From positions 1 to 64,000 of the IMG/VR virus record IMGVR_UViG_3300025788_000001: 64,000 nucleotides of DNA; one strand, given 5' to 3'. Below the pieces are notes generated by a model. The model made no database searches and was not told the DNA's origin. It was given only the letters and a program-made list of their open reading frames with translations. The stretch comes from a virus. Every line of letters starts with the position of its first letter. The first letter of the stretch is position 1. Positions 13,921-34,771 of the stretch are shown here, one piece after another. The position numbers were made by a program, and so were the translations under genes.

Positions 13921-14162
13921 TCTTTTTCCTTTGCTAATATCTGAGCTGCTCTATGAATTTTTCCATCAAACCAACGACGAACAACATAACTGCGAACAAC
14001 AGAAATGACTGTGTAAAGTAATCCCATGTAAAAGTTGTTAGTAAGAGTAATATGGAACCCAAAAAGAGGAAGGATAAGCAGGTTAGCAACAAAGTTAATA
14101 CCAAAACCAATCCCCACATTGATACACGCTTCATAAAAACTCCCTAGTTTAGTCTGCCTCAT
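13917..14162 (-). CDS. Two-helix membrane protein, DUF7220-like
   Basis: 81 residues. Two membrane segments: 'GIGFGINFVANLLILPLFGF' (about 17-36) and 'NFYMGLLYTVISVVRSYVV' (about 43-61), followed by 'RRWFDGK'. The layout (N-terminal 'EACINVGIGFGINF', central 'LPLFGF', 'VRSYVVRRWF') is that of the phage DUF7220 family. The role is unknown; inner-membrane location is inferred. ATGA overlaps on both sides place it in a translationally coupled run. Confidence 0.75.
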   Translation of the reverse strand: MRQTKLGSFYEACINVGIGFGINFVANLLILPLFGFHITLTNNFYMGLLYTVISVVRSYVVRRWFDGKIHRAAQILAKEKE

Positions 14163-14704
14163 TTCTCTTGTGCCTTTCTTAGTATTGCTCTAGCAAAATC
14201 TATTTGGTAGTGATGCCAATTTTTATAGTCTTTAAACACTTCATCTGCTACCTTCCGTATTTCCTCATCTGTTAGTGTCTTTGCTGGATGGGTGTAGAGT
14301 GGAATAGCAAGATAACCTTCTGCTGGTTCATACCCAACATAAACAAATTCACCGCCTACACTACTCATCCACGCTACTGGTTTGTTGTCAACTTGTAATA
14401 GCTGATTAGCGACATTTTTGGCATCATCGTAGCTATTGAGCGACATTTTAGTTTTTAATTCTTCTATCTCAGCTTGTTGCTGGCGTAGCATGGTGGCTGT
14501 CTGCATAAATATTTCGCCAGAAAAACCATTAGCCCTAGCTTCAGAGGCTTTATTTCCTTGAAATTCAATCAGTTCATTTGCGTTCAGAGAAGTCCGATTA
14601 GGGTTTACTCTTTTCCATATATGTTCATATGTGTAGCCTAGCGCAAGAGCTTCTGCCTCGGTCATTGCGAGCCTGTTTCCATCTTTGTCATGAAATATAA
14701 TCAT
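14159..14704 (-). CDS. Modular PVAW/PLYTHP protein (full A+B+C form)
   Basis: 181 residues. It contains all three modules of a family repeated in this genome: A, 'LNANELIEF ... TATMLRQQQAEIEELK', a coiled coil; B, 'PVAWMSSVGG ... IPLYTHPAKTLTDEEI'; C, 'FARAILRKAQEK' at the C-terminus. Module B resembles the short conserved stretch of lambda Ea22/ead-like phage proteins. No catalytic motif is visible. It is the only copy outside 21.1-23.6 kb, 6 kb away from its paralogues, and its stop codon overlaps the next start within the same conserved junction sequence. Function unknown. Confidence 0.7.
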   Translation of the reverse strand: MIIFHDKDGNRLAMTEAEALALGYTYEHIWKRVNPNRTSLNANELIEFQGNKASEARANGFSGEIFMQTATMLRQQQAEIEELKTKMSLNSYDDAKNVANQLLQVDNKPVAWMSSVGGEFVYVGYEPAEGYLAIPLYTHPAKTLTDEEIRKVADEVFKDYKNWHHYQIDFARAILRKAQEK

Positions 14705-21163: not shown

Positions 21164-21387
21164 TTCTCTTGTGCCTTTCCAATATCTATTGTAGGAATAT
21201 CTACCCATTCCCCATACGCTATGCCTACCGAATACTTCTCTTTCCATATCTGCCACCATTTAGATATTTTGGTTTGTTCTTCATAAACATATCGCCATTG
21301 TGCAAGGTATTCATATTGCATTGCCGTTATATCAGCATAGGAGGATGGCACTAATCTTTTAGCCAATCGGTATTCTTTTGTACGCAT
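21160..21387 (-). CDS. Hypothetical protein with KAQEK tail
   Basis: 75 residues, aromatic-rich: 'QYEYLAQWRYVYEEQTKISKWW'. The last residues 'GKAQEK' and the DNA around its stop codon match the junction shared by the PVAW/PLYTHP family, although the rest of the protein is unrelated. This looks like an unrelated gene that has acquired the family's 3' end. Confidence 0.65.
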   Translation of the reverse strand: MRTKEYRLAKRLVPSSYADITAMQYEYLAQWRYVYEEQTKISKWWQIWKEKYSVGIAYGEWVDIPTIDIGKAQEK

Positions 21388-21602
21388 TATTTTTCTTGTG
21401 CCTTTCTTAGTATTGCTCTAGCAAATTCAATAATGTCTTGTGCGCCATTAAGATTATTCTTTTGTGTCCACAAAGCTAATATTTCACTATCTGTTAGTGT
21501 CTTTGCTGGATGGGTGTAGAGTGGAATATGGTAAATCTCGTCTTTAACCACACTAAAAAGTAATTCGTTAGCCGCCATCCACGCTACTGGTTCGTTGTTC
21601 AT
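21387..21602 (-). CDS. PVAW/PLYTHP family protein (B+C form)
   Basis: 71 residues: 'NNEPVAWMAANELLF', 'IPLYTHPAKTLTDSEIL' and the C-terminal 'FARAILRKAQEK'. It is the shortest complete B+C copy and lacks the coiled-coil module A. Function unknown; it is probably a paralogue arisen by recombination at the shared ends. Confidence 0.7.
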   Translation of the reverse strand: MNNEPVAWMAANELLFSVVKDEIYHIPLYTHPAKTLTDSEILALWTQKNNLNGAQDIIEFARAILRKAQEK

Positions 21603-21784
21603 TTGCAGTTCTTTCTTAATCGTTTAGTTTTATCTTCGTTATCACTAAAGTATTTACAATCCTTACCTTCTCTAGGACTATCTACAAAGTAAGACTGATA
21701 CTCTGGTGTAGCCCTAGCAGTAAAGCGATAACATCTCTCACGCTTCTTACAGGTCTCGTCACGACACATTGTTATATCAGCCAT
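21599..21784 (-). CDS. Small Cys-rich conserved phage protein
   Basis: 61 residues with cysteines in 'MCRDETCKKRERCYRF' and later 'GKDCKYF' and a C-terminal 'NCK'. The pattern 'CRDxxCxxxxxCYRF ... P..QSYF' is one I have seen in phages of proteobacteria; it probably binds a metal. It interrupts the PVAW/PLYTHP series. Function unknown. Confidence 0.7.
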   Translation of the reverse strand: MADITMCRDETCKKRERCYRFTARATPEYQSYFVDSPREGKDCKYFSDNEDKTKRLRKNCK

Positions 21785-22062
21785 TAGTTCATCCCCGTAA
21801 GTCCATGTTGCGACTGTACTGTCTTAACATATTGCACTGCGTCCCAGAAGCCATTCTCATACTCTTCAGATTGAGTCCCTGTCATCGTAATGTCTTCAGC
21901 CCACACAACCATTTTGTCAAGATGTACAAGCTGTCTATGCTGTTGCTCAATCAACTCCTGAGCTTTCATCAAGATAACATGAGCAGTACCCCAAGGAAGT
22001 TCAGAAGTTTCTTCTAAGTAGTCGGTAATATCTTTTAATACTTTTTCTCTAAGCAGTCTCAT
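21784..22062 (-). CDS. Hypothetical protein, 92 aa
   Basis: 92 residues, mostly helical with aromatic patches ('ELPWGTAHVILMKAQELIEQ' and 'YENGFWDAVQYVKTV'). It shares no module with its PVAW/PLYTHP neighbours, but the junction with the upstream copy is conserved, so it moves in the same setting. No family recognised. Confidence 0.6.
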   Translation of the reverse strand: MRLLREKVLKDITDYLEETSELPWGTAHVILMKAQELIEQQHRQLVHLDKMVVWAEDITMTGTQSEEYENGFWDAVQYVKTVQSQHGLTGMN

Positions 22063-22334
22063 TTATCCTGTGCCTTTCTTAGTATTGCTCTAAATTTGTC
22101 TGCTACATGGCGATACAAGATTTCCATGTCTGCTTTGCTGTGTCGGTCAAAATGGTTCATCCAATAGTCGGCTGATTCTCTAGCTTCTTTTAATATTTCC
22201 TCATCTGTTGTTAGTGTCTTTGTTGGCTGTGTGTAAAGTGGTTTCCAATAATCAACTTCACAATAAGGCTTCTTCTCTACAATCTTTGTGCCATGACCTG
22301 TTTTAAGAATCCACGCTACTGGTTCATTGTTCAT
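22059..22334 (-). CDS. PVAW/PLYTHP family protein (divergent B+C form)
   Basis: 91 residues: 'NNEPVAWILKTGHG', a diverged 'WKPLYTQPTKTLTTDEEIL', and 'DKFRAILRKAQDK'. Compared with the other copies, His is replaced by Gln in the PLYT-P core, and the linker between modules is longer. Function unknown. Confidence 0.7.
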   Translation of the reverse strand: MNNEPVAWILKTGHGTKIVEKKPYCEVDYWKPLYTQPTKTLTTDEEILKEARESADYWMNHFDRHSKADMEILYRHVADKFRAILRKAQDK

Positions 22335-22591
22335 TTCTCACTAGCCTTTCTTAGTATTAGATGGGCAAAATAATGTTGTTGCGTAGTAAATCCGTGTTGC
22401 ATAGCAATCCCATCTTCATGCGATTTTGCCCACAATTCGTTTACTACATCATCTGTTAGTGTCTTTGCTGGATGGGTGTAGAGTGGAATATTGGCGTGTT
22501 CATTTTCTTTTGGATATGCTTTTGTGTCATACCCTTCTTCTAAATATTGAAGGCTAAATTTACTTATCCACGCTACTGGTTCATTGTTCAT
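22331..22591 (-). CDS. PVAW/PLYTHP family protein (B+C form)
   Basis: 86 residues: 'NNEPVAWISKFSLQYLEEGYD', 'NIPLYTHPAKTLTDDVVN' and a C-terminal 'HLILRKASEK'. The junction with the next gene is slightly diverged (Ser for Gln in the tail). Function unknown. Confidence 0.7.
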   Translation of the reverse strand: MNNEPVAWISKFSLQYLEEGYDTKAYPKENEHANIPLYTHPAKTLTDDVVNELWAKSHEDGIAMQHGFTTQQHYFAHLILRKASEK

Positions 22592-23184
22592 TTCTCTTGT
22601 GCCTTTCTTAGTGCTTTAGCAGTAGCTAATACAATCTTTTTGTATTTGTTAAATTCTTCCCCAGTTTTCCAAATCTCATGCCCTACTGGCACAATTTCTG
22701 CATCTTGAAGAATAGCTACTACATTTATCTCCTCATCTGTTAGTGTCTTTGCTGTTGCCGCCTTGTAGCCTTTCTCAAACCCAATAGCTTCAGCAATGCC
22801 TAAATCGTGTTCTGCTGGATGGGTGTAGAGTGGAATAGGCTCTGTTGTCCCTGTAACTTTCCATGCAAACTTAATGTCATAGATTGTTGCGCCTTCTCCT
22901 TCAGGGTAAAAATGTCCTACTGGTTCATCTAAACCCCCCATAAGTGTAGGGTTTGTTGGTACTTGTTCAATCTCCTCAGATGATTTAGACAATCTCCATA
23001 GTGCTAACTCTTTTTTCAACGCTTCTATCTCAACTTGTTGCTCATGGAGTATTTCTTCATACTTACTTGTTATCCTTTCAATTTCTACCTCTTGCTGGCG
23101 GAGCATGGTGGTTATTTCTTCTCTAGTTACCAGCTTGTACCAACTGTCAACTTCTAATAGGTCGGCTAATTCATTTGCGTTCAT
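22588..23184 (-). CDS. PVAW/PLYTHP family protein (A+B+C, extended)
   Basis: 198 residues. Module A 'MNANELADLL ... TTMLRQQEVEIERI' continues into a long coiled coil. Module B is altered: 'EPVGHFYPEGEG' in place of PVAW, then 'PIPLYTHPAEHDLG', then an inserted 'AIGFEKGYKAAT' before 'AKTLTDEEI'. Module C is 'LATAKALRKAQEK'. The insertion between PLYTHP and KTLTD shows that the modules can be split. Function unknown. Confidence 0.7.
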   Translation of the reverse strand: MNANELADLLEVDSWYKLVTREEITTMLRQQEVEIERITSKYEEILHEQQVEIEALKKELALWRLSKSSEEIEQVPTNPTLMGGLDEPVGHFYPEGEGATIYDIKFAWKVTGTTEPIPLYTHPAEHDLGIAEAIGFEKGYKAATAKTLTDEEINVVAILQDAEIVPVGHEIWKTGEEFNKYKKIVLATAKALRKAQEK

Positions 23185-23342
23185 TTCTCTTGTGCCTTTC
23201 TTTCTTCTAGCTCTACCTTGGCTAGTTCTATTATGTATTGATTTTTATCTATACCAAGTTTTTCAGCAAGAGCTAATGCCAAGTCAGGCACAATAAACTG
23301 ATGGACTGTTTTACCATCTTTCTTTACCTTTATAGTCTTCAT
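23181..23342 (-). CDS. Small protein with the family tail, 53 aa
   Basis: ATG 23342 to TGA 23181, with ATGA overlaps at both ends. The product 'MKTIKVKKDGKTVHQFIVPD' followed by 'LALAEKLGIDKNQYIIELAKVELEERKAQEK' (quoted in part) looks like a beta-hairpin plus helix, and it ends in the family tail ERKAQEK. As with 21160-21387, only the 3' end belongs to the modular family. Confidence 0.65.
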   Translation of the reverse strand: MKTIKVKKDGKTVHQFIVPDLALALAEKLGIDKNQYIIELAKVELEERKAQEK

Positions 23343-23593
23343 TTCTCTTGTGCCTTTCTACTTATCATTCCATCAGCATACCCAATTTGTCTGCCACGCT
23401 CAAATGCATCTAAGCAATACTGTTCTGCTTTTTTTACTTCATGGTCTTTTTGGCAATAAGCATCTTTTAATTTTTCAATGCCTTCTTTCAACGCTTCTAT
23501 TTCAGCTTGTTGCTGGCGTAGCATGGTGGCTGCTTCTTGCAAACAAGGTATTGCAGTAAATTCCAATTCCTTAATTAGTTCATTAGCGTTCAT
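23339..23593 (-). CDS. Module A-only paralogue with KAQEK tail
   Basis: 84 residues: 'MNANELIKELEF', 'EAATMLRQQQAEIEALKE', a coiled-coil stretch with two cysteines, and the tail 'MISRKAQEK'. Module B (PVAW...PLYTHP) is absent, so this is an A+C deletion form of the same family. Confidence 0.7.
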   Translation of the reverse strand: MNANELIKELEFTAIPCLQEAATMLRQQQAEIEALKEGIEKLKDAYCQKDHEVKKAEQYCLDAFERGRQIGYADGMISRKAQEK

Positions 23594-24300: not shown

Positions 24301-24611
24301 ACTTCCTCCTTCTGTTTATATTGTTTAGTTATTTCATGCATCTTACCCGCAATAAACCCAGCCTCCCATAACGGGTCGACCATACCACTAGCCATGTATG
24401 TATCGTAGTCCTTGGGTATAGGTAGCCAATCGGCATATTCCTCGTCATATAGGGCTTGGTCATCGCTACGCAGTCCTTCAAAATCTAATGCGTAACTCTG
24501 CAACTCCAAGCCTAGGTCAGAGTCGGCGGTTAATAGGTTCTCGTCTATCTCCTCTATCTTGCCGTCATTCCATGTAAACCTTACCTGCACCTTCGTTATT
24601 GATTTACTCAC
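24297..24611 (-). CDS. Hypothetical acidic protein, 104 aa, GTG start
   Basis: The frame is open further upstream, but the GTG at 24611 follows a strong GAGGAGGAAG site and overlaps the stop of the 55-residue gene (GTGAGTAA), so I prefer it. The product begins 'SKSITKVQVRFTWNDGKIEEI' (two strands) and then is acidic ('LRSDDQALYDEEYADWLPIP'), ending 'MHEITKQYKQKEEV'. It lies immediately downstream of the ATP-grasp gene set. Function unknown. Confidence 0.65.
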   Translation of the reverse strand: MSKSITKVQVRFTWNDGKIEEIDENLLTADSDLGLELQSYALDFEGLRSDDQALYDEEYADWLPIPKDYDTYMASGMVDPLWEAGFIAGKMHEITKQYKQKEEV

Positions 24612-24771
24612 TATCTTCCTCCTCAATTCGATCAGCTTCTTCACACATAAAATCAAACTGCATATCCAAAACATTAAAGTGCTTACCGGCTTCAGCTTCG
24701 GCATCATCGCAGTTATCTGCCTCCACTTCTACATATGCGCACCCAGTTACTAATACATTCCATCTGCTCAT
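24604..24771 (-). CDS. Small acidic protein next to the ATP-grasp gene, 55 aa
   Basis: ATG 24771 overlaps the ATP-grasp stop as ATGA; the stop is TAA at 24604. The product 'MSRWNVLVTGCAYVEVEADN' followed by 'DMQFDFMCEEADRIEEEDSE' has a beta-rich first half, three cysteines and a highly acidic tail EEEDSE. Its size, acidity and position make it one possible acceptor for the neighbouring peptide-ligase enzymes, but that is inference only. Confidence 0.6.
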   Translation of the reverse strand: MSRWNVLVTGCAYVEVEADNCDDAEAEAGKHFNVLDMQFDFMCEEADRIEEEDSE

Positions 24772-25538
24772 ACAACCTCCTTAATTGCATTAACATATTT
24801 GTTAACAGTCGAACCCTCTAGACCGCACGCAGTATTTACTTCTAACACATAGCACTTATCCTGTGCCTCATTCCATGCAACATCTACTGCACCGAAGTCT
24901 AGCCCTAACGCATCAACGGCAGAGATAGCAACCCCCCTAAGAGAGTGAGGTTCTTCGATACCACCTCGACAAAAGACATACCCATTTGCATGGTTTCTAA
25001 TATAAGGGTGGTGGTCATCAACACTAGAACTCCTACGCTTTTCTTGTATGTCAAGAATTTTACTATTAAATACATGAACTCTGAACTCCTTTTGCTTGCG
25101 TATGTATTTTGTATACAACGGGGCATCTACTAACTCTGAGTGTTGTTTGGCTACAACAATGCCTTGCCCTGAGTGTGCGGTGAGTAGCGTACGACATACT
25201 ACCTTGAAGCCCTGTTCTATCCAGTCCTTTGCCTTGTCCTTGTCTGTTGTGTATTCAGGGTGGGGGACATCGGCTAGCTTAAAATGCAGTAACGACCTGT
25301 GTTTGTTTGACGCAACGCTGACGGCACTAGCGGAGTTGATGACCGTAGCATTTGTATCACTAATCCCACTACTACCCCAGTTAATAACGACACGACTAGG
25401 CTTGCACAAGCCGACACGCTCAGGGTTTATAAACAACACATCTCTACCTAATGCTTCGCTCAGTCCTTTCTTTAATAGCCTTGCACTTTTACTGCCTCGT
25501 TTGTATGGGGCTATGGCTACCCTTGATGTGTTTGTCAT
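24768..25538 (-). CDS. ATP-grasp ligase
   Basis: 256 residues. ATP-grasp motifs: 'FKVVCRTLLTAHSGQGIVVAK' (quoted in part: Arg/Thr then the Gly-rich loop HSGQGIVV), 'YTKYIRKQKEFRVHVF' (adenine/substrate strand) and 'FGAVDVAWN ... YVLEVNTACGLEG', where E-x-N binds the metal. This is the RimK/GshB-like group. It would activate a carboxylate as acyl phosphate and join it to an amine. It lies 0.5 kb downstream of genes for a class II glutamine amidotransferase and an amidoligase on the same strand, a combination predicted from comparative genomics to build or attach peptides. Substrate unknown. Confidence 0.88.
   Translation of the reverse strand: MTNTSRVAIAPYKRGSKSARLLKKGLSEALGRDVLFINPERVGLCKPSRVVINWGSSGISDTNATVINSASAVSVASNKHRSLLHFKLADVPHPEYTTDKDKAKDWIEQGFKVVCRTLLTAHSGQGIVVAKQHSELVDAPLYTKYIRKQKEFRVHVFNSKILDIQEKRRSSSVDDHHPYIRNHANGYVFCRGGIEEPHSLRGVAISAVDALGLDFGAVDVAWNEAQDKCYVLEVNTACGLEGSTVNKYVNAIKEVV
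25338..25348 (+). repeat. GATGACCGTAG motif copy 4
   Basis: Exact 11-mer on the + strand, antisense inside the ATP-grasp gene; the antisense codons read Ala-Thr-Val-Ile. Confidence 0.7.
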
Positions 25539-25828
25539 TCCGTATCTTTCCTTTCTAAGCCTTTGATTTTGTTAAGCAAATCCGTTATCTGCTCATCGTT
25601 TTGGTATCCGATTACATCATTACATACAGGGTTTTGGGAGTCTAAGTAGTAGTTTGTTTTACTTAACCACTTAATAACTGCCAATTCATATGGGCGTTCA
25701 TCATTACCACGAATCAGACCATCACCCCCCCATACCACACTCGCACCATACCCATTAGGAAAACGGTAAAGTCTTTGGTTGTGTGGCATATCCTTATTCG
25801 GATTCTCTGCTACTAAATGTTCTTTCAT
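25535..25828 (-). CDS. Conserved phage protein (FPNGYGASVV)
   Basis: 97 residues with 'YRFPNGYGASVVWGGDG', 'YELAVIKWLSK' and 'CNDVIGYQNDEQITDLLNKI'. This order of motifs is common in small proteins of phages of many hosts; no function is established to my knowledge. It lies between the ATP-grasp and GAT-II genes, coupled by ATGA on both sides, so it may work with that cluster. Confidence 0.75.
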   Translation of the reverse strand: MKEHLVAENPNKDMPHNQRLYRFPNGYGASVVWGGDGLIRGNDERPYELAVIKWLSKTNYYLDSQNPVCNDVIGYQNDEQITDLLNKIKGLERKDTE

Positions 25829-26031
25829 ACTCCCTCCTCTAGGTTTATATACTGACTCTCTTCCCCTAACTCCAAGGTTTCGTACTGCTCATAGTTGTCA
25901 CTTTGAATGTGCTTATCCCACAAACTGGGGTCAGTCTTATATGCTTTTCTTTCTGCTTCTTCTCTAGTAAGGGCAGTTACTTCTTGGACTGCAAAGCGGG
26001 TAGCACCCGCAACTATATAAAACTTAGACAT
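25825..26031 (-). CDS. Hypothetical protein, 68 aa
   Basis: 68 residues: 'SKFYIVAGATRFAVQEVTALTREEAERKAYKT', quoted in part, gives strand-strand-helix, then an acidic end 'ELGEESQYINLEEGV'. AAAGGAAAAT precedes ATG 26031. It sits between the GAT-II and ATP-grasp genes. Function unknown. Confidence 0.65.
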   Translation of the reverse strand: MSKFYIVAGATRFAVQEVTALTREEAERKAYKTDPSLWDKHIQSDNYEQYETLELGEESQYINLEEGV

Positions 26032-26051
26032 ACTTTATTTTCCTTTCGTTG

Positions 26052-27233
26052 TTAGCAGATACTGATTTTTTGTGGCTTAGTTCTTTCCATCCAAGGGAAC
26101 GCTTCACGGGCACAGATGTGGTCAGTCAAGATACGCTCGAACCAACTGCTGTCAATCATGTCGTCTAGTGCCATGTAGCACACCTCCATGAAGTTATCGA
26201 TACCAAACTCCTCGATGAATTCATAGCCTGCGGTGCGACTAAGATACTTGATCTCAAATGTCTGCTCGATCTCAAACAGTAAATCTTCCATCACATCGTC
26301 AATCTCTTGAGGTGACACACCAAACTCAGGGCTACGCTTAGTGTTATCTTCATCATCGTAATCGCCATCTTCATCTTCAAAGATACTACCTACTGGCGGT
26401 ACATATACTGGGCGATCTAGCTTGTCCGTTGCTTCTACCTTGTCATATGTCTTGGTAGTGTGGTTGTATTTGTAATCCTCCCAGTAATCATCACTATCGT
26501 ATCGACTATCGTAACCACCAGCACCGTAGCCAGCACCATAGCCAGACCACTGCTTGTACGACTTACTCCCACCAGTTTTCCATACTGCCTTGTATGGCTC
26601 AGCCTCGATCTGTTGCACCGCTAACTCGGCACTATCAACATAATCTTTGGGCACACCAGTAGGACTAGACCACGCATATGTATTAGATAACCAACGACCG
26701 CCCCAATACACGCCTGAGGTTTGATTGACTGTCTGAACACGACCTGTGCTATCCATGATGACGAACTTATTAGACGCACCAATATGATCACCGACAATCT
26801 CAGCAAACGCATCGGTAAACGCAAAGTCTAAGTTGTTAGCAAGCATAGGTCGCAAGTAGTCACGAATGTAGTGCCATGTATCTGACTTGGTAACATCACC
26901 CGCATTACCTGTACCTAGTATGCCGTTATGCATGAGCCAAACATCAAGCCCGTGCTCAGCACTATTGAATACTTCATATGGGTGGCAATTCTCCATATCG
27001 ATGTTGCCGTGGGTCTTCATACGCAGATGGAACGCACAATCGTAGCCATCAATGTGGTTGGTATAAAAGTCTACAAACTCTTGGGCATTCTTAGGCAAGA
27101 TCTTCTCTATGAGAAGCTCGCCGTCAACTGAACGCATGATACCAACGCCATCGGCATTAGATGAATAGAAATCCTCTAACCACTCTTGGGTTAATGAAGG
27201 GGCGGAAGCGGGCTGAACGACTAATAAACACAT
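26052..27233 (-). CDS. Class II glutamine amidotransferase-like protein
   Basis: 393 residues. Cys2 directly after Met1 ('MCLLVVQP') is the expected N-terminal nucleophile of class II (Ntn) glutaminases. 'NADGVGIM', 'FHLRMKTHGNIDMENCHPYEV' (in part: HLRMKTHG and NCHPYEV) and 'WLMHNGILG' match the glutamine-binding loops of GATase-II. The C-terminal 170 residues (Gly/Tyr-rich then very acidic) have no recognisable synthetase domain. It could supply ammonia from glutamine to the neighbouring amidoligase, or use the same fold as a peptidase. AAAGGAAATACAT precedes ATG 27233. Confidence 0.88.
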   Translation of the reverse strand: MCLLVVQPASAPSLTQEWLEDFYSSNADGVGIMRSVDGELLIEKILPKNAQEFVDFYTNHIDGYDCAFHLRMKTHGNIDMENCHPYEVFNSAEHGLDVWLMHNGILGTGNAGDVTKSDTWHYIRDYLRPMLANNLDFAFTDAFAEIVGDHIGASNKFVIMDSTGRVQTVNQTSGVYWGGRWLSNTYAWSSPTGVPKDYVDSAELAVQQIEAEPYKAVWKTGGSKSYKQWSGYGAGYGAGGYDSRYDSDDYWEDYKYNHTTKTYDKVEATDKLDRPVYVPPVGSIFEDEDGDYDDEDNTKRSPEFGVSPQEIDDVMEDLLFEIEQTFEIKYLSRTAGYEFIEEFGIDNFMEVCYMALDDMIDSSWFERILTDHICAREAFPWMERTKPQKISIC

Positions 27234-27270
27234 ATGTATTTCCTTTATTTAGATTGATTTAAATTTGTTT

Positions 27271-27288
27271 GGGACAGGTTTCTGCCCG
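27271..27288. repeat. Hairpin repeat R1
   Basis: GGGACAG-GTTT-CTGCCCG, 7-bp stem (one G-C/G mismatch-compatible position) and 4-base loop. It lies between the amidoligase stop and the GAT-II start. Confidence 0.7.
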
Positions 27289-27289
27289 C

Positions 27290-28765
27290 TTACACTTCAG
27301 CTAATTGTTCTTTCTTCTCGAAACGTGGGTTAGCTTTAACGATTGCTGATTTATCTAGCATGAATCCCTTAGACTGCAAGAATGACCGTAGATTGATTGT
27401 GTCCTTGCGGTTGTCAGGCTGGCAAATAAACTTGAGGAAGTTATCCGTAGTTAAGTCTTGTTGCCCTGTATCACGACTAAAGAACCAAGCCATGTAAGTA
27501 AACTCAAGACAAGACATGATGGTCTCATAGCGTAGCGTGCCCTTAAACAAGCGGAACTCAATAGTTCTCTCGGGCTGGAAGTTAACCGACTCATACCGAT
27601 CCTCATTCAAGCGTTGCATACCATTACGCTTGCCGTGCTTGAGCCATGCATAGTCGGCTGTCTTGTTCTTAACCTGTGAATAGCGGTTGCCATCTCGTCT
27701 TGCTATGGTACGAAAGAGTCGCTGGTTTCTACTATCGTGCATGAACAGGATTAACTTTGCCGCATGAAACATACTCATACCCTTCTTGCAAATGTGAACA
27801 TGAAGCCCACAAGTCTTGGTATCGTGCGACTTAACATCAGCCCATCTACGCTTAAAGAACTCTAACTGCTTGGCATGAACATCTAACCCTGTGTAGCCAG
27901 TCACCATCTCAAAGCCGTGGCTAAGAGACCCATCGTCTTCTAAGAAACAATAGTTGTGCCCTTCAGGCGTAACACCGATAGCCTCGAACAACTCCTCAGC
28001 CTTAGCCTCTCGGTCGCAACCATCGCCGACCTCCATCTCAAGCTCAAGCCCCATGTAGATCTTAGTCTCTCGCTTGGAGAACTCAGTTGGGATAAGACCT
28101 AGCTTACGCTTACTACTATGATAACCCCCGATGAAGCGGCTTTCTTCTTCCTCCTCCTCATCGTCTTCGATGTCAGGCTCTTCATCATCTTCATGCACCA
28201 CGCTATCATGGTAGTCTGACCAACGATAGCTATTCTCCCTACAACTAGAGCACACCCATCTGTCGCCGTTATACACCCAAGAGCCATCGTCTTCTGCTTC
28301 TATGTACTCGCAGTCAGAGCAAACCTCATATGTAGGTGCGTCGGGGAATTTATCCGAATCGTTAATCATTTCGCACCAATCGCTACTACCTGCCATATCC
28401 CTAATGTCAGGGTTGTCATTAAGCATACAAACTAACTCACTATCGTCTTGAGTTCTAAAACACTCCCTAGCCCTCACTCCGAAGTCGTATAGAGCACGCT
28501 TGCGAGTCATAAGCGAGACATAACTTGTTACTGAAAACCGATTGAGTCGGTTGCCGTGCCATTGTTGTGTTACTAAGAGGTTGTTCTTGATAGTGTGCCT
28601 ACTATGATCTACTGCTTCCGCCATAGTCCATGCGTGTGGTCTTTCCATGTGATTCAACTTCATGCTGAGGAATGTCCGCAACACGTCATGCTTACCATCG
28701 GGCAGGCTTGCTTTGCGAAGACGGACTGCTTCTACCTGTGCAACTGTATATGTAACTGTTGGCAT
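27290..28765 (-). CDS. Amidoligase (GS-like COOH-NH2 ligase) with zinc ribbon
   Basis: 491 residues. A zinc ribbon ('CSDCEY ... CSSCRE', about 153-190) and an acidic linker ('EEDDEEPDIEDDEEEEEE', in part) precede the catalytic part. Amidoligase_2 motifs are 'MGLELEMEVG' (about 240), 'FLEDDGSL', 'CGLHVHI' and 'PERTIEFRLFKGTL' (about 400). This glutamine-synthetase-like fold uses ATP to join a carboxylate and an amine. It heads the cluster with GAT-II and ATP-grasp. The start ATG 28765 has GAAAGGAAATAC upstream. Product chemistry unknown. Confidence 0.85.
   Translation of the reverse strand: MPTVTYTVAQVEAVRLRKASLPDGKHDVLRTFLSMKLNHMERPHAWTMAEAVDHSRHTIKNNLLVTQQWHGNRLNRFSVTSYVSLMTRKRALYDFGVRARECFRTQDDSELVCMLNDNPDIRDMAGSSDWCEMINDSDKFPDAPTYEVCSDCEYIEAEDDGSWVYNGDRWVCSSCRENSYRWSDYHDSVVHEDDEEPDIEDDEEEEEESRFIGGYHSSKRKLGLIPTEFSKRETKIYMGLELEMEVGDGCDREAKAEELFEAIGVTPEGHNYCFLEDDGSLSHGFEMVTGYTGLDVHAKQLEFFKRRWADVKSHDTKTCGLHVHICKKGMSMFHAAKLILFMHDSRNQRLFRTIARRDGNRYSQVKNKTADYAWLKHGKRNGMQRLNEDRYESVNFQPERTIEFRLFKGTLRYETIMSCLEFTYMAWFFSRDTGQQDLTTDNFLKFICQPDNRKDTINLRSFLQSKGFMLDKSAIVKANPRFEKKEQLAEV
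27381..27391 (+). repeat. GATGACCGTAG-like motif copy 5 (AATGACCGTAG)
   Basis: Ten of eleven bases match. It is antisense to the amidoligase gene, in a reading frame (Asn-Leu-Arg-Ser) different from the other antisense copies, which argues for selection on the DNA. Confidence 0.6.
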
Positions 28766-28796
28766 AACTGTATTTCCTTTCGTTTGTGTAATAACT

Positions 28797-28807
28797 GATG
28801 ACCGAAG
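28797..28807 (+). repeat. GATGACCGTAG variant (GATGACCGAAG)
   Basis: One mismatch to the motif. It lies in the intergenic gap upstream of the amidoligase gene, six bases before hairpin R2. Confidence 0.4.
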
Positions 28808-28812
28808 TCATT

Positions 28813-28829
28813 GGACAGAAACCTGTCCC
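28813..28829. repeat. Hairpin repeat R2
   Basis: GGACAG-AAAC-CTGTCC core, in the gap between the amidoligase start and the upstream 36-residue gene. Confidence 0.7.
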
Positions 28830-28832
28830 AAT

Positions 28833-28943
28833 CTATTTAATAATCAAACCTACTACATACCTAACTACCTGCGCCCCTATGAATAAACTACAAAACAACA
28901 GGGCGATCCTGCTATACAAATCAAATCCTTGTAATACTTTCAT
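28833..28943 (-). CDS. Tiny membrane protein, 36 aa
   Basis: ATG 28943 to TAG 28833, overlapping the end of the 226-residue gene by 23 bases. GGAGAAG lies just upstream of the ATG. The product has one membrane helix, 'IALLFCSLFIGAQVV', and a second hydrophobic stretch 'VVGLIIK' at the end. It ends four bases before hairpin R2. Function unknown. Confidence 0.6.
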   Translation of the reverse strand: MKVLQGFDLYSRIALLFCSLFIGAQVVRYVVGLIIK

Positions 28944-29601
28944 CTTCTTCTCCCGCTAGTCGATACCGCATTATGTCGTTGCCCGTGCCATCTAAACCCC
29001 AGTCCCAAGCATCTGCCCTACGCACATAGCCCACGGGTCTATTAAAATCCCTTAGCCACACTACTAATTCAGGTGTGGTAAGGGTGCTATTTAGGCGGGC
29101 TATGTCGGGTATGGTGCCGTGTATTGGGTGGTCTCTTAAGTCGGTAAGGCGGTGCAAGTTACCCCAATCCACCCATGGACTCTCTTTCTTGAGCTTCTTG
29201 TATGCGACTATCGCACCGGTTTGCCTCGGAGAATCACCCCACCATAAGTGGGACACCCAATTACTACCTTTCTCTCCACTCCGCAAGACATACCTAACCC
29301 TATCTGTGCGTAGTAAGTGCTCAGGCTTTTCATCGGGTTGGGTTGTGGTATTTATTAGTGGGTGCAGGGGTGTGAACCCCTTGGGTATTTTGAAGCGTGG
29401 TTCTGTGGGTTCGGGTTCTCGGAAGACGGGTAGTCTTGGGTCTGTTGTTGGGGGTGGTGGGGCGTGCAAGCGTGGTACTACCCTATCTCGCATTTCTGCA
29501 ATCATCTCTTCAACGCTCATATCCCTAACTGCCCTACCTACATACTGCCTTTCTTGCTCATACACATCTTCTAGTCCTTCTCTACTTTCACCATTAGGCA
29601 T
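28921..29601 (-). CDS. Hypothetical protein with Pro-rich linker, 226 aa
   Basis: 226 residues. An N-terminal helical part ends in a Pro-rich linker ('RLHAPPPPTTDPRLPVF'), followed by a compact Trp-rich domain: 'GSNWVSHLWWGDSPR', 'SPWVDWGNLHRLTDL', 'VVWLRDFNRPVGYV', 'ADAWDWGLDG'. Several Trp/Asp pairs suggest a globular domain, but I do not recognise it. AAAGGAGGAAAT precedes ATG 29601. It is the first sizeable gene upstream of the amidoligase. GC is higher than in its neighbours by eye. Confidence 0.65.
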   Translation of the reverse strand: MPNGESREGLEDVYEQERQYVGRAVRDMSVEEMIAEMRDRVVPRLHAPPPPTTDPRLPVFREPEPTEPRFKIPKGFTPLHPLINTTTQPDEKPEHLLRTDRVRYVLRSGEKGSNWVSHLWWGDSPRQTGAIVAYKKLKKESPWVDWGNLHRLTDLRDHPIHGTIPDIARLNSTLTTPELVVWLRDFNRPVGYVRRADAWDWGLDGTGNDIMRYRLAGEEDESITRI

Positions 29602-29630
29602 GGTTTATTTCCTCCTTTGTTAGTGGTTGT

Positions 29631-30233
29631 TTACTTAGCGGACAGGTTTCTGCCCGTATCGTATTCATTTAACTTCTCTACTCTCCTTTCTTTCATCAAT
29701 CTATATTGCGTTTCTAAAACCGCCAAGTGGTCTAGGCGTGCTTGTTTGATTTGGGCTATTTGCTCGGGTGTATCTGCTTTTGTTTGCCGAGTCGTTTTTA
29801 TGGGACAGGTTTCTGTCCGTCTGAAGTAGGCGTGGTATCTGTTCTTAGCTAGGTTTACTTCTTTATCTAGGGTGGTTTTTAGTGCTTCTCGTTCCTTACC
29901 CTTTTCCTTTTGCCACCTTTCTTTCATCACTCGCTTTCGCATATCGTTGATGTCCTTTCTTTTTTGGTGTATTAGTTGTTCCCCTAGGTAGGGGTTGATG
30001 CGTTTATTTGTTATCTTGTTGCGTAGTTCTTTGAGGGTGAGCTTAGCCCTCGGTTTGCGTTTGGGTTGGCATTGTTTGCACAAAGAGCTGATGACCGTAG
30101 TTCCTGTTTCAACCCGCCTGTTTAGGGCGTTTGAATATTCTTCTGCAGTCATGCGTCTTTTAAACTCAGCTCGCTCTCTTGTTTCCCCGCATTTCGCACA
30201 AGTTAGTTGTGCTTGCTTGGTTAGTTTTTTCAT
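29631..30233 (-). CDS. Zinc-ribbon protein with long basic helix
   Basis: 200 residues. An N-terminal zinc ribbon 'CAKCGETRERAEFKRR ... SLCKQC' (two CxxC pairs near residues 12-15 and 51-54) is followed by a long, very basic helical region ('QKRKDINDMRKRVMKERWQKE', in part). The architecture suggests nucleic-acid binding, perhaps of HNH-endonuclease descent but without the HNH core. Hairpins R3 and R4 lie inside the coding sequence and encode '...GRNLSAK' at the end and '...RTETCPIK' in the middle. The ribosome site is weak. Confidence 0.65.
   Translation of the reverse strand: MKKLTKQAQLTCAKCGETRERAEFKRRMTAEEYSNALNRRVETGTTVISSLCKQCQPKRKPRAKLTLKELRNKITNKRINPYLGEQLIHQKRKDINDMRKRVMKERWQKEKGKEREALKTTLDKEVNLAKNRYHAYFRRTETCPIKTTRQTKADTPEQIAQIKQARLDHLAVLETQYRLMKERRVEKLNEYDTGRNLSAK
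29639..29656. repeat. Hairpin repeat R3
   Basis: CGGACAG-GTTT-CTGCCCG, inside the last codons of the zinc-ribbon gene. Confidence 0.7.
29802..29819. repeat. Hairpin repeat R4
   Basis: GGGACAG-GTTT-CTGTCCG, inside the coding region of the zinc-ribbon gene. Confidence 0.7.
30090..30100 (+). repeat. GATGACCGTAG motif copy 6
   Basis: Exact 11-mer on the + strand, antisense to the zinc-ribbon gene; the antisense codons read Thr-Thr-Val-Ile. Confidence 0.7.
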
Positions 30234-30261
30234 GTGGTTTGTTTCCGTTTTAATGAAGCAA

Positions 30262-30279
30262 GGGCAGGTTTCTGTCCCG
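30262..30279. repeat. Hairpin repeat R5
   Basis: AGGGCAG-GTTT-CTGTCCC, in the non-coding region upstream of the zinc-ribbon gene. Confidence 0.65.
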
Positions 30280-30613
30280 TTTAGCCATAAAAGTCTACTA
30301 ATGTCCAGTAATTATACCTATGTTGTCCACAGTAGTTGTCATGTGTTTGAGCCTTATACTACTACGCTTTTTCCTTATGCTGTCACAGATGTCTACGGAT
30401 TTCCAGCAACTTAAGGACTAAGAAAGTAAGACACAAATAAACAGTCCCACTTATCTACCCTTATATATATATATTTAGAATTTAGTATTTATATATATAG
30501 GTGTGCTGGGAATGTGGTAGACGCACATAAACAAAAGGGTTGCGGGCGTCAAGGTAGTGTCCACCTGCGAGATAAAGTAGACAATTACCAAGTGCATTAT
30601 TATGGTGCATAAC

Positions 30614-30631
30614 GGGACAGAAACCTGTCCC
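30614..30631. repeat. Hairpin repeat R6 (perfect copy)
   Basis: GGGACAGAAACCTGTCCC: a perfect 7-bp stem and AAAC loop, 13 bases downstream of the 85-residue gene. Confidence 0.75.
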
Positions 30632-30643
30632 AAACCCCTCTCA

Positions 30644-30901
30644 TTACAGCCAGATGAAGCCACAAGAAGCTAACGCATCGGAGGTGATGACTACCCAGCC
30701 TGAGTCCTTGCCGTGCTTCTCAATGCGTTTACGCCACGCTGTTGTGGCTCGGGCTAAAGACTGATATGGCTTTCTTACTATCTCGCCTACTTCATCGCCT
30801 TTCTTTTGGCATACGACCCATACATTACTACGCTTACCTAGTGTGCCTTCGGCTAGGATCTGTTTGTATACAGCGCTTGGTTTGAGTGTGATTGATTTCA
30901 T
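30644..30901 (-). CDS. Hypothetical basic protein, 85 aa
   Basis: 85 residues, basic, with 'SNVWVVCQKKGDEVGEI' and 'RATTAWRKRIEKHGKDSGWVVI', i.e. strand-helix-strand by appearance. ATG 30901 overlaps the stop of the HTH-like gene (ATGA) and follows GGAGAATTACT. It is followed by hairpin R6. No family recognised. Confidence 0.65.
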   Translation of the reverse strand: MKSITLKPSAVYKQILAEGTLGKRSNVWVVCQKKGDEVGEIVRKPYQSLARATTAWRKRIEKHGKDSGWVVITSDALASCGFIWL

Positions 30902-31041
30902 AGTAATTCTCCTTTGTAAAGGTTAACGACAGATTGGACTTGCTTGGTTGATAACTTGAGAGAGCGGGCAATCGCTAGGATTGTGTAGCCTTCCCAATAC
31001 ATTAGTGCTACCTCTTCTACTAATCGCTTCATGCCTGACAT
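30898..31041 (-). CDS. Tiny HTH protein, copy A, 47 aa
   Basis: ATG 31041 to TGA 30898. The core 'EGYTILAIARSLKLSTKQVQSVVNL' (quoted in part) reads as helix-turn-helix: 'LAIARSLKLSTKQVQSVV' has the Ala-x3-Leu and turn spacing of a sigma-70 region 4 or HTH_23 type motif. It is a paralogue of the gene just upstream (31044-31187). It probably binds DNA as an early regulator. Confidence 0.65.
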   Translation of the reverse strand: MSGMKRLVEEVALMYWEGYTILAIARSLKLSTKQVQSVVNLYKGELL

Positions 31042-31043
31042 GG

Positions 31044-31187
31044 TTAGACTCCTTTGTGTTTAGGTAGGTTGATTACTGCATATACATCTTTGGTTGAAAG
31101 ACTTAGTTGCCTTGCTATCGCTAGGACTGTGTAGCCGTCACGATATAGGGACATGATGTCCCATGCTTTGTTCTTGCCCTTGCTCAT
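31044..31187 (-). CDS. Tiny HTH protein, copy B, 47 aa
   Basis: ATG 31187 to TAA 31044. The core 'DGYTVLAIARQLSLSTKDVY' matches copy A closely in length and in the HTH motif, so this is a tandem duplication that has since diverged in its termini. Coupled to the upstream 56-residue gene by ATGA. Confidence 0.65.
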   Translation of the reverse strand: MSKGKNKAWDIMSLYRDGYTVLAIARQLSLSTKDVYAVINLPKHKGV

Positions 31188-31354
31188 TCGTATTTCCCTT
31201 GTTTGTAGGTGTTGCGGTTAAAGGTCATAAACACCTCGCCCATAGTGATGGGCTTGTGGTAGTCAGGTTTGGGTTTGGTATCGGACAGAATCCTGTCCCG
31301 TTGTTGCCTGACCATTTGTCGCATGGCTAGTTGTTGCGCTTTGGTTAAGTGCAT
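31184..31354 (-). CDS. Small basic protein, 56 aa
   Basis: ATG 31354 to TGA 31184. 'MHLTKAQQLAMRQMVRQQRD' is a basic amphipathic helix; the rest, 'KPDYHKPITMGEVFMTFNRN', is short and polar. Hairpin R7 lies inside it and encodes 'RDRILSD'. Function unknown; a nucleic-acid-binding role is a guess from charge. Confidence 0.6.
   Translation of the reverse strand: MHLTKAQQLAMRQMVRQQRDRILSDTKPKPDYHKPITMGEVFMTFNRNTYKQGKYE
31282..31300. repeat. Hairpin repeat R7
   Basis: CGGACAG-AATC-CTGTCCCG, inside the 56-residue gene. Confidence 0.7.
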
Positions 31355-31409
31355 GGTTACTCCTTGATTAGACAGAAAATTAAACTGCGATGAAGCCTCG
31401 TTGCCACGC

Positions 31410-31844
31410 TTACTTGATAATCCGCATGAACTTGGCTTGCTCGGCTTTACTCAACTGCTCGAACAACTCGACTACCTTGTCAACTGTTACCTTGACTTGC
31501 TTGAATGACCCTGACTTCTCAGGTCTAACTATGTGACTACGGAACATCTCAGTCGCTGACTTGTATGCGAGTTGGTGCTCTCTCGTTCTCTCATCACGAG
31601 TTTGGGACAGAATCCTGTCCAAGACCTTATCGCTTGGATTACCTAGATAACCCGCAACAAAGTGTCGCACCCATTCGTGTCTCCAATCGGCTTGTGCCTC
31701 AGGGTCTTCCTTAATGTATTGCTTATGCCATACCTCTGACTCAGCCATACTCATTCGCTTGGCTACTCCCATGCCGTTAGCGAATACAGCGAATGTAATG
31801 TTTGCACCCTTTGGTGCTGTTTGATAAGTAAATGTTAATGCCAT
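31410..31844 (-). CDS. First early-operon protein, 144 aa
   Basis: The frame extends upstream, but ATG 31844 is chosen because it follows TTGGAG and because the upstream part runs through a hairpin terminator. The product starts 'MALTFTYQTAPKGANITFAV', has 'ESEVWHKQYIKEDPEAQADWRHEWVRHF' (in part) and ends in an amphipathic helix 'LFEQLSKAEQAKFMRIIK'. It is the promoter-proximal early gene, where phages often place host-takeover proteins. Hairpin R8 is inside it and encodes 'LDRILSQ'. No family recognised. Confidence 0.65.
   Translation of the reverse strand: MALTFTYQTAPKGANITFAVFANGMGVAKRMSMAESEVWHKQYIKEDPEAQADWRHEWVRHFVAGYLGNPSDKVLDRILSQTRDERTREHQLAYKSATEMFRSHIVRPEKSGSFKQVKVTVDKVVELFEQLSKAEQAKFMRIIK
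31604..31620. repeat. Hairpin repeat R8
   Basis: GGGACAG-AATC-CTGTCC, inside the 144-residue first early gene. Confidence 0.7.
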
Positions 31845-32621: not shown

Positions 32622-33242
32622 TTGCTTTTAGAGCATTTGGTCTCAGCCGTAGCTGCAGATTATGTACCAGAAATTGATTCTGGTGCGGACAACTTTACCC
32701 CCCTAGAAGACTTGACTGCCCCCCAAACATTGGGCGCGCAAAAACAAACAGTAGACTGGTTAAACCAATTCTCCTCCGAAGAGGAAGAAGCCCAGATCCT
32801 ATCTAATGCCCAAGAACAACAAGTAGCCAACGCATTCGCTGCTTTAACAGCTGGCTCCCCTGACGCAAAAAACCAATTACTGAACTTACAAGTCCCTGAA
32901 GAAATCACAAACGCCGTGGCTATGGTCACTGGATACCAGTGGGAGTTTGTAAAACAGGCGAATGAGTTGCGTTCGATGAGCGTGGCAAAGATCGTCAAAG
33001 AAACCGACCACCCTGATGCCCGGATACGTCTAAAAGCGTTGGAGTTGCTAGGAAAAGTCACGGAAGTAGCCTTGTTTACCGAACGCGTAGAAGTAAACCA
33101 AAAAGAAATAAGCAATGAGGAACTCGAAAAGCGCATCAGAGAGAAACTATCCAAGTACATGGGTAAAGCAGACGTCATTGACGTAGAAGATATCGTCGAA
33201 ACTAAGGTTGTTGCAGAAAAGCAACGGTATAAAGACGAATGA
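32622..33242 (+). CDS. terS: Terminase small subunit-like protein, TTG start
   Basis: 206 residues. The TTG at 32622 is preferred because AAGGAGG lies 8-9 bases upstream. The centre, 'SMSVAKIVKETDHPDARIRLKALELLGKVTEVALF' (quoted in part), is helical with the 'DARIRLKALELLGKV' stretch common in phage terminase small subunits of this type. The N-terminal part is acidic and the C-terminal part is a coiled coil ('EELEKRIREKLSKYMG'). It recognises the packaging site on DNA and loads the large subunit. Its end overlaps terL by four bases. Confidence 0.75.
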   Translation: MLLEHLVSAVAADYVPEIDSGADNFTPLEDLTAPQTLGAQKQTVDWLNQFSSEEEEAQILSNAQEQQVANAFAALTAGSPDAKNQLLNLQVPEEITNAVAMVTGYQWEFVKQANELRSMSVAKIVKETDHPDARIRLKALELLGKVTEVALFTERVEVNQKEISNEELEKRIREKLSKYMGKADVIDVEDIVETKVVAEKQRYKDE

Positions 33243-34771
33243 ATCTAGACTTTCTAACTCCACAAGAGGCTCTCGCCGCGCAATTAGCGCTAAAAGACAT
33301 GAGTTTGGAAGAGAAGGCGCTCTTTTTAGCGGATTTAGAAGAGCAAGAGCACCGCATGCACTTAAATCAGGCACAAAATAAGCCGCTGGAGTTCGCGAAA
33401 GCAGTATACCCAGGCTTTAAGATAGGGCCCCAGCACCGCAAACTAGCTAAAATCTTCCAGGATGTTGTGGAGGGGCGAAAAAAGCGCGTAATTATTAATA
33501 TTGCACCACGTATGGGCAAATCAGAGTTTTCGTCCTACCTGTTTCCGGCATACTTTCTAGGTCAATACCCCGAGAAGAAAATCATTATGGCCACGCATAC
33601 CGCGGGGCTCTCGGAAGACTTTGGACGGAGAGTGAGGAACTTAATTGACTCAGATGATTACAGAGCAGTCTTCCCAAACACGGTCGTTGCCGACGACCAA
33701 AAGGCTGCGGGTAAGTGGAGCACATCTGCTGGTGGGCAGTATTATGCTGCTGGTGTCGGGGGTGCCTTGGCAGGACGAGGCGCTGACTTGTTTGTTATTG
33801 ATGACCCTCATTCTGAACAGGACATGAAAGCGAATTCAAGGCTAGCGTTTGATAACGCCTGGTCTTGGTTCCAAACTGGCCCACTACAACGTTTAATGCC
33901 GGGGGGTGCGATCATAGTAATTATGACTCGCTGGTCTTTGCTCGATTTAACTGGGCGGATCATTGACTACAATATAAAAAACCCGCACACGACCCCTTGG
34001 GAGATTGTAGAACTGCCCGCTATCCTTAACGAAGATACAGACGCAGAAAAATCCCTTTGGCCAGAACAATGGCCCCTCGAAACACTGAAAGCTACAAAGG
34101 CAGTACTAGATCCTCGTTATTGGAATGCCCAGTATATGCAGAACCCGACTAGCGATATGAGCGCTGTTGTTGGAAGAAAAGACTGGATGATATGGGAAAA
34201 AGATGACCCGCCTACTGTAGAGTATATTATTCAAAGCTGGGATACGGCGTTTGAAACTAAGACAACATCTGACTACTCCGCATGTACAACGTGGGGGGTT
34301 TGGTATAACGAGGAGGATGGGAACTCACCCAATTTAATCTTACTCGACGCCTTTAAAGACCGAATGGCATTTCCAGAACTAAAACAAGTAGCGCTAAAGC
34401 ACTACAAGGAATGGAAGCCCGATGCGTTTATTGTGGAGAAAAAAGCTTCAGGTGCCCCGTTGATCCAGGAACTTAGGATGATGGGGATACCAGTACAGGA
34501 GACCAACCCTTCCCGTGGAAATGATAAGATGGTTCGCTTGAATGCCGTAGCTGATCTTTTTACTAGCGGGAAGGTTTGGGCGCCCGATAGGCGGTGGGCC
34601 CGGGATGTAATAGAAGAATTGGCATCGTTCCCAGTTGGCGAGCATGATGACTTTGTGGATACGACAACTCAGGCACTTTTGCGGTACCGCCAGGGCGGGT
34701 TCATTAGTTTGGACACCGACGAGAAAGATGATTTGCAGTACAAGTACAGACGGAAGGCGGCATACTACTAA
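33239..34771 (+). CDS. terL: Terminase large subunit
   Basis: 510 residues. ATPase: Walker A 'APRMGKSEF' (about 91-99), then 'MATHTAGLSEDFGRRVRNLI', Walker B 'LFVIDDPHSEQD' (about 184-195) and coupling motif 'TRWSLLDLTGRI'. Nuclease (RNase H fold): 'QSWDTAFETKTTSDYSA' (first Asp, about 333), 'VEKKASGAPLIQEL', 'HDDFVDTTTQALL' (last Asp pair, about 468). It powers headful or cos-type DNA packaging into the procapsid; the type cannot be read from the sequence. Confidence 0.96.
   Translation: MNLDFLTPQEALAAQLALKDMSLEEKALFLADLEEQEHRMHLNQAQNKPLEFAKAVYPGFKIGPQHRKLAKIFQDVVEGRKKRVIINIAPRMGKSEFSSYLFPAYFLGQYPEKKIIMATHTAGLSEDFGRRVRNLIDSDDYRAVFPNTVVADDQKAAGKWSTSAGGQYYAAGVGGALAGRGADLFVIDDPHSEQDMKANSRLAFDNAWSWFQTGPLQRLMPGGAIIVIMTRWSLLDLTGRIIDYNIKNPHTTPWEIVELPAILNEDTDAEKSLWPEQWPLETLKATKAVLDPRYWNAQYMQNPTSDMSAVVGRKDWMIWEKDDPPTVEYIIQSWDTAFETKTTSDYSACTTWGVWYNEEDGNSPNLILLDAFKDRMAFPELKQVALKHYKEWKPDAFIVEKKASGAPLIQELRMMGIPVQETNPSRGNDKMVRLNAVADLFTSGKVWAPDRRWARDVIEELASFPVGEHDDFVDTTTQALLRYRQGGFISLDTDEKDDLQYKYRRKAAYY

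Follow-up and report, generated by a model that had tools for sequence, protein, structure and literature searches.

What might a virus of bacteria make with an amidoligase, a class-II glutamine amidotransferase (GAT) and an ATP-grasp ligase encoded together? The question is raised by IMGVR_UViG_3300025788_000001, a freshwater-type virus of bacteria, in which these three genes, referred to here as the trio, lie on the minus strand. The stretch analysed, bases 1–64000 of the 67,073-base record, is referred to as the window. The amidoligase and the GAT are the core of the module, and the ATP-grasp ligase is an add-on that is optional for the pair. The three enzymes and their principal parts are:

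27290–28765, minus strand: amidoligase (Amidoligase_2, zinc-finger subtype), 491 amino acids, assigned by PF12224, invariant motifs and a predicted glutamine synthetase/glutamate–cysteine ligase (GS/GCS) fold

28241–28321, minus strand: putative zinc-binding Cys4 motif CxxC-x19-CxxC, amidoligase residues 149–175, recognized by conservation and motif counts

27362–28084, minus strand: predicted ligase catalytic domain of the amidoligase, residues 228–468, from structural alignment of the predicted model

26052–27233, minus strand: GAT, 393 amino acids, with Cys2, R71, HNG and D118 invariant and PurF and GlmS as profile relatives

26583–27233, minus strand: predicted glutaminase (N-terminal nucleophile, Ntn) domain of the GAT, residues 1–217, from structural matches of the predicted model

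26094–26588, minus strand: C-terminal part of the GAT, from an AlphaFold2 model, variable in the alignment

24768–25538, minus strand: RimK-like ATP-grasp ligase, 256 amino acids, assigned by PF08443, phrog_2599 and invariant ATP/Mg residues, with an ATGA overlap

Position, shared strand and motifs are as given in a first-pass annotation of this DNA: all the open reading frames (ORFs) are present, and the catalytic residues that it named are invariant or nearly so in alignments of relatives. The enzyme classes are likewise borne out by Pfam or profile matches and conserved catalytic residues and, for the two that were modelled, by the predicted fold. The amidoligase scores 28.2 bits against the Amidoligase_2 (PF12224) cut-off of 22 (29.2 with its frame). 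Little or no variation is seen at G239, E241 and E243, at C319, G320, H322 and H324, or at E403 and R405, and the E-x-E, H-x-H and EFR residues among them (E241, E243, H322, H324, E403 and R405) are the same in all 18 relatives, the most distant of which is 18% identical. A sequence search of solved structures gave nothing up to an E value of 1. In the predicted model (mean predicted local distance difference test score, pLDDT, of 79) residues 228–468 adopt a GS/GCS-type fold, with structural similarity to YbdK-like 1tt4 (VIA-align Z 11.7, r.m.s.d. of 4.1, 211 aligned residues) and many matches to glutamine synthetases (Z about 10–11).

The GAT is identified by profile, fold and catalytic residues. 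C2, R71, H102, N103, G104 and D118 are invariant across the aligned relatives, PurF and GlmS are the closest solved relatives by profile, and the first ~200 residues of the predicted model match 1te5 (Z 9.6), EgtC (Z 8.9) and the GlmS glutaminase (Z 8.6). The model has a pLDDT of only 67.6, its C-terminal half being of low confidence: residues 216–307 form a Tyr/Gly-rich, acidic linker with pLDDT mostly below 50, and residues 308–380 a small helical region. As it scores 11.5 bits against the GATase_4 (PF13230) cut-off of 23, the protein is assigned to the fold superfamily only, outside that family.

The ATP-grasp ligase scores 25.9 bits against PF08443 (cut-off 21) and matches phrog_2599 (E 9.5e-74), and its ATP/Mg residues (S123, G124, G126, D219, E233 and N235) are invariant across subtypes. 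It lies nearest to RimK/MptN ligases. Owing to a score of 40.8 bits, far under the NCBIfam cut-off of 143.4 for the RimK alpha-L-glutamate ligase subfamily (TIGR00768), we call it RimK-like and not RimK. The ratio of nonsynonymous to synonymous divergence (dN/dS) is 0.10–0.26 for those trio comparisons in which dS is unsaturated, dS of the amidoligase and GAT being near saturation, and all three enzymes are therefore under purifying selection.

Profiles were built for the window-subtype amidoligase and GAT (A1 and A2), for their classical counterparts, typified by the phiEco32/LUZ24 module (A4 and A5), and for the ATP-grasp (A6); the subtype labels rest on profiles of 6–18 sequences. Collections were scanned with short peptide patterns and the best 80 loci taken, many of the contigs being fragments and some near-duplicates. 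The GAT is adjacent in 71 of the 72 viral loci that were picked by the amidoligase alone and had room for it, and the amidoligase is close by in all 16 bacterial loci picked by the GAT alone (Polynucleobacter, Pelistega, Azoarcus, Candidimonas, Nocardia and others). Amidoligase and GAT lie upstream of the ATP-grasp in every one of the 61 ATP-grasp-picked loci that extend 5 kb or more upstream, whereas the ATP-grasp is found in 11 of the 42 amidoligase-picked loci that extend 4 kb or more downstream, each of the 11 belonging to the window's own clade. The ATP-grasp thus needs the pair, and the pair does not need the ATP-grasp. The best 80 ATP-grasp-picked loci include 60 of the classical and 17 of the window subtype. 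Neither the profile nor PF08443 found an ATP-grasp elsewhere in the pair-only records, which include one of 67,058 bases (G010) with a terminase 80% identical to that of the window. The co-occurrence of the three enzyme classes in predicted clusters, put forward in the first-pass annotation as known, is strong in the loci scanned and published for other phages. Its further question, whether the trio and the small coupled genes travel together, divides: amidoligase and GAT are near-obligate companions, but the ATP-grasp is optional and the small genes are inconstant.

Between the window and the relatives G011 and G013, amidoligase and GAT share 64–71% amino acid identity and the terminase (33239–34771) 94–95%; divergence or swapping is thus faster in the module than in the backbone. 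The window ATP-grasp is 42–46% identical to those of CVT22, TC6, QDWS535 and a Vibrio Zobellviridae phage, and 33–36% to those of UFV-P2 and phiEco32. The window clade joins classical freshwater loci (L101–L110; Shimodaira–Hasegawa-like approximate likelihood ratio test, SH-aLRT, 91) in a tree built from 73 ATP-grasps. As it groups within the classical lineage, the ATP-grasp was probably recruited from a classical module, the tree support being moderate. Two independent recruitments were suggested by the amidoligase tree, in which the deep branches are long; this scenario was set aside, as a single group is not rejected in the ATP-grasp tree (approximately unbiased test, p-AU 0.299). An exchange more recent than the backbone was also rejected, the ATP-grasp dS of 0.62–0.74 being similar to the 0.8–1.1 of terminase and portal.

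Several loci depart from the common arrangement. At about 16.2 kb along one contig (IMGVR 3300032561_000100, loci L038/L111) the ATP-grasp is split over two frames, and an intact copy is present in a related contig (L039/L100); the split would reflect either decay or a sequencing error. Among Nocardia contigs L085–L090, a single GAT stands between two different zinc-finger amidoligases in L085 and L087–L090, and in L085 the first amidoligase overlaps the GAT start. Two Polynucleobacter contigs (L075 and L076) carry the pair in mobile islands, both with a relaxase, to which L075 adds a tyrosine integrase and a SIR2–HerA defence pair and L076 a type IV secretion system coupling protein.

Residues 149–175 of the amidoligase form the Cys4 motif, of which each cysteine is at least 90% conserved in the 18-relative alignment and all four are invariant in 19 rows. 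This region of the model is predicted with confidence (pLDDT ~90) as strands followed by a helix beginning at the second CxxC, and resembles a treble clef. In the window subtype the motif occurs in 90 of 95 amidoligases and 3 of 82 GATs; in the classical subtype it occurs in none of 60 amidoligases and in 45 of 54 GATs, there at the C-terminus (expectation from shuffled sequences, at most 2.2). Exactly one motif per amidoligase–GAT pair is present in 110 of 126 pairs. Because the place of the motif alternates between ligase and GAT, the two proteins are predicted to form one complex; the simplest reading of these counts is one Cys4 module, putatively zinc-binding, per complex. A literature search that did not cover Iyer et al. 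2009 found no description of this partition.

The kind of cluster is already known. All three classes occur together in the annotations of UFV-P2, of other LUZ24-like phages (PMC3890496) and of TC6 (PMC6209634), amidoligase and GAT in that of phage tf (PMC3517423), and the trio again in the records of phiEco32, CVT22, QDWS535 and phiM6. As in the window, the module of phiEco32, LUZ24-like phages and PA11 (Zobellviridae) combines an Amidoligase_2 protein, a class-II GAT and the same ATP-grasp family on one strand, upstream of replication genes, and in phiEco32 and UFV-P2 the gene order, amidoligase–GAT–ATP-grasp, is also shared. The window amidoligase and GAT are, however, of a different subtype (hhalign 97.7% and 91.9% only), and the Cys4 motif is on the ligase in the window and on the GAT in the classical phiEco32/LUZ24 module. 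Classical modules usually add a second COOH–NH2 ligase (PF14395), a gamma-glutamyl cyclotransferase or both. The 67-kb record, which may be incomplete, has no match to PF14395 with an E value of 1 or below, nor any to the cyclotransferase family PF06094 at the same threshold. Methylophilales phages MEP401 and MEP402 and the Manatee Spring podovirus ctgrD200 carry the same-subtype pair, adjacent and in the order of the window, with GATs 26–29% identical to that of the window; unlike the window, the full MEP402 and ctgrD200 records contain no ATP-grasp. In Sinorhizobium phage phiM6 amidoligase 2, ATP-grasp and GAT are annotated side by side as in the window, but the amidoligase is of classical type, the gene order is different and a gamma-glutamyl cyclotransferase is present; its GAT is nearer to the window subtype. 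What is new here is the reduced module: a two-enzyme core, an optional ATP-grasp, the Cys4 motif on the amidoligase and inconstant small proteins.

Accompanying the enzymes are three small genes, joined at the last three gene junctions (from the 68-residue gene onward) by 4-base ATGA stop/start overlaps:

25825–26031, minus strand: 68-residue coupled ORF, ATGA overlap with the next gene, present in some close relatives only

25535–25828, minus strand: 97-residue protein, phrog_4074, a common small phage protein that occurs in unrelated phages

24604–24771, minus strand: 55-residue acidic protein, ATGA overlap, absent from some trio-bearing relatives

The proposal that the 55- or the 97-residue protein is a partner or acceptor of the enzymes finds no support in close relatives that keep the trio, as each small gene is missing from some of them, and neither protein is an obligatory partner. 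As a dedicated acceptor, the 97-residue protein was rejected: phrog_4074 is found in Listeria, Streptococcus, Bacillus and Pseudomonas phages that were not recovered in the searches with the GAT or amidoligase of the window. Rejected too was the 55-residue protein, which has no match among 50,697 phage records, is missing from loci L008 and L020, and lies far from the pair in L061. Loci L038 and L039 keep the trio genes and lack both the 68- and the 97-residue genes.

A GAT-II and a GS/GCS-type ligase suit glutamine- and ATP-dependent amidation of a carboxylate, and an ATP-grasp suits further aminoacyl ligation. In the model that we prefer, the GAT would hydrolyse glutamine through its nucleophile Cys2 and supply the amidoligase with ammonia or an amine; the amidoligase would spend ATP to activate the carboxylate of a peptide-like substrate and yield an amide. 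The Cys4 module would probably hold GAT and ligase together or present the substrate, and the RimK-like ATP-grasp would probably join an amino acid to the same product or acceptor, again at a carboxylate. Such a module most likely serves to modify a host peptide early in infection, and a peptidoglycan precursor is our best guess for the target, by analogy with MurT–GatD of Staphylococcus aureus, in which a ligase and a GAT amidate a carboxylate of the peptidoglycan peptide and alter lysozyme sensitivity (PMC3267633); the benefit to the phage would be a guess in turn. MurT–GatD is, like the proposed core, a two-protein ligase and glutamine amidotransferase. Taken whole, from the two-protein amidation core through the added ATP-grasp to early host modification, we give this model about an even chance. 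A comparable role in the cell wall and in superinfection has been proposed for the phiEco32 cluster, ascribed to Iyer et al. 2009 (Mol Biosyst) in one paper (PMC10580990) and repeated in another (PMC11318856); the enzyme predictions for phiEco32, LUZ24-like phages and PA11 are credited to the same 2009 study. Experimental proof of that role was not found in the literature searched, which likewise held no report of a substrate for phage clusters of this type, annotated for well over a decade. The phage's own lysin resembles a GH108 muramidase; such an enzyme would cut glycan and not stem peptides, and altering the latter would not necessarily keep the phage from lysing its host.

Several points weigh against this amidation model. 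MurT–GatD pairs a Mur-type ligase with a CobB/CobQ-like class-I GAT, whereas the window has a GS-like ligase and a class-II GAT; as neither part is homologous, the comparison is an analogy only, and substrate and product are guessed from enzyme class and analogy. The Ntn hydrolase EgtC, whose reaction is the cleavage of a gamma-glutamyl amide, scores less than 1 Z below the best structural match of the GAT, and the fold thus does not distinguish ammonia donation from deprotection. The two core genes are also not always together: no GAT was detected in the 4 kb next to the amidoligase of Clostridioides phage AR1086-1, and the GAT of an Ideonella plasmid stands alone.

The EgtC match leads to the alternative that survives best, a small-molecule pathway in the style of ergothioneine or butirosin, in which an amide, gamma-glutamyl or another, would be formed by the amidoligase and lengthened by the ATP-grasp before the GAT removes the glutamyl group, the product being a soluble peptide metabolite. 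EgtC of ergothioneine synthesis shares the Ntn GAT-II fold and fits the GAT almost as well as GlmS does; its partner EgtA is a GCS-type ligase, and the amidoligase fold matches YbdK, glutamate–cysteine ligase and GS alike. The cyclotransferase added in classical modules would also suit such a pathway. However, this enzyme and the second ligase are absent from the record, no transport or tailoring genes were seen adjoining the trio, and the EgtA/EgtC pathway has other substrates, another context and further genes not seen here, and we regard the metabolite as unlikely.

Less likely again is protein tagging, in which a protein of the host or the phage would receive amino acids or a peptide from the ligases, in the manner of Dop/PafA or of RimK and tubulin ligases. 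The Pup ligase PafA and the depupylase Dop, both of the GS fold, are among the amidoligase fold matches, and the proximity of the ATP-grasp to RimK/MptN ligases would fit; yet the trio has no constant small companion that could serve as a tag, and the pair is found in very different hosts and elements. Improbable too is a conflict module for defence, anti-defence or exclusion, with amide chemistry disabling a nucleotide, cofactor or defence protein instead of remodelling the wall. The Polynucleobacter island with its integrase, relaxase and SIR2–HerA pair is in keeping with it, as is the far greater divergence of amidoligase and GAT than of terminase between the window and G011/G013, but a common island location is weak evidence, and a known defence system was rejected after a PADLOC search gave no match for the three trio proteins. 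Protection of phage DNA by hypermodification with amino acids, which the first-pass annotation had allowed for and which enzymes forming amides on modified bases could in principle achieve, can be dismissed as highly improbable, as the record contains no gene of the thymidylate synthase/hydroxymethylase family and the pair occurs also outside phages.

The amidation model further supposes early expression. The trio shares its strand with the genes for DNA polymerase A, helicase and primase, opposite to those for terminase, portal and virion proteins, and its placement is therefore compatible with early-gene status. Preceding both core genes are palindromes, which, with the 68-residue ORF and the amidoligase Cys4 motif, are additional to the first-pass annotation:

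28813–28828, no strand assigned: palindrome GGACAG-n4-CTGTCC, 48 bases before the amidoligase start

27272–27287, no strand assigned: a copy of it with one mismatch, in the interval between the two core genes and 39 bases ahead of the GAT start

This 16-base palindrome with 6-base arms has eight sites in 27272–31620 (starting at 27272, 28813, 29640, 29803, 30262, 30615, 31283 and 31605), confined to the start of the early region, against 0.28 matches expected in the whole window. Relatives have palindromes at corresponding places with other arms (GGATAG, GGGGAG, TGTGTG, GGGAAC or TGGGAC), common to most or all copies in a genome, so that the arms change in concert at conserved positions between lineages; L010 has a mixture of two arm types. 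Inside the p56 coding gene both arms change synonymously (GAC/CTG to GAT/CTA), and selection thus acts on the nucleotides of the palindrome. The sites look like operators or RNA hairpins particular to each lineage. The early operon opens with two tandem 47-residue homeodomain-like helix-turn-helix proteins (30898–31041 and 31044–31187, minus strand). They were considered as the factor setting palindrome specificity and rejected, the L010 protein being 96% identical yet accompanied by another arm.

A broader and quite speculative view, improbable as a whole, is that the zinc-finger amidoligase and GAT are a free-standing amidation enzyme, spread across phages of several phyla and defence-adjacent mobile islands, which in these freshwater phages would have become a palindrome-controlled exclusion or host-modification cassette, upgraded by the ATP-grasp and with lineage-specific specificity. 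The two-gene core, free of the extra ligase and the cyclotransferase, is a small, assayable object and might suffice to learn the product of such clusters.

Elsewhere in the window, a 2297-residue protein (59–6952, plus strand) has the large polyvalent protein domain LPD38 near its C-terminus. Encoded at 14159–14704 and 21387–23593 (minus strand) are small paralogous proteins built as mosaic combinations of common segments (MNNEPVAW..., ...PLYTHPAKTLT... and ...LRKAQEK).

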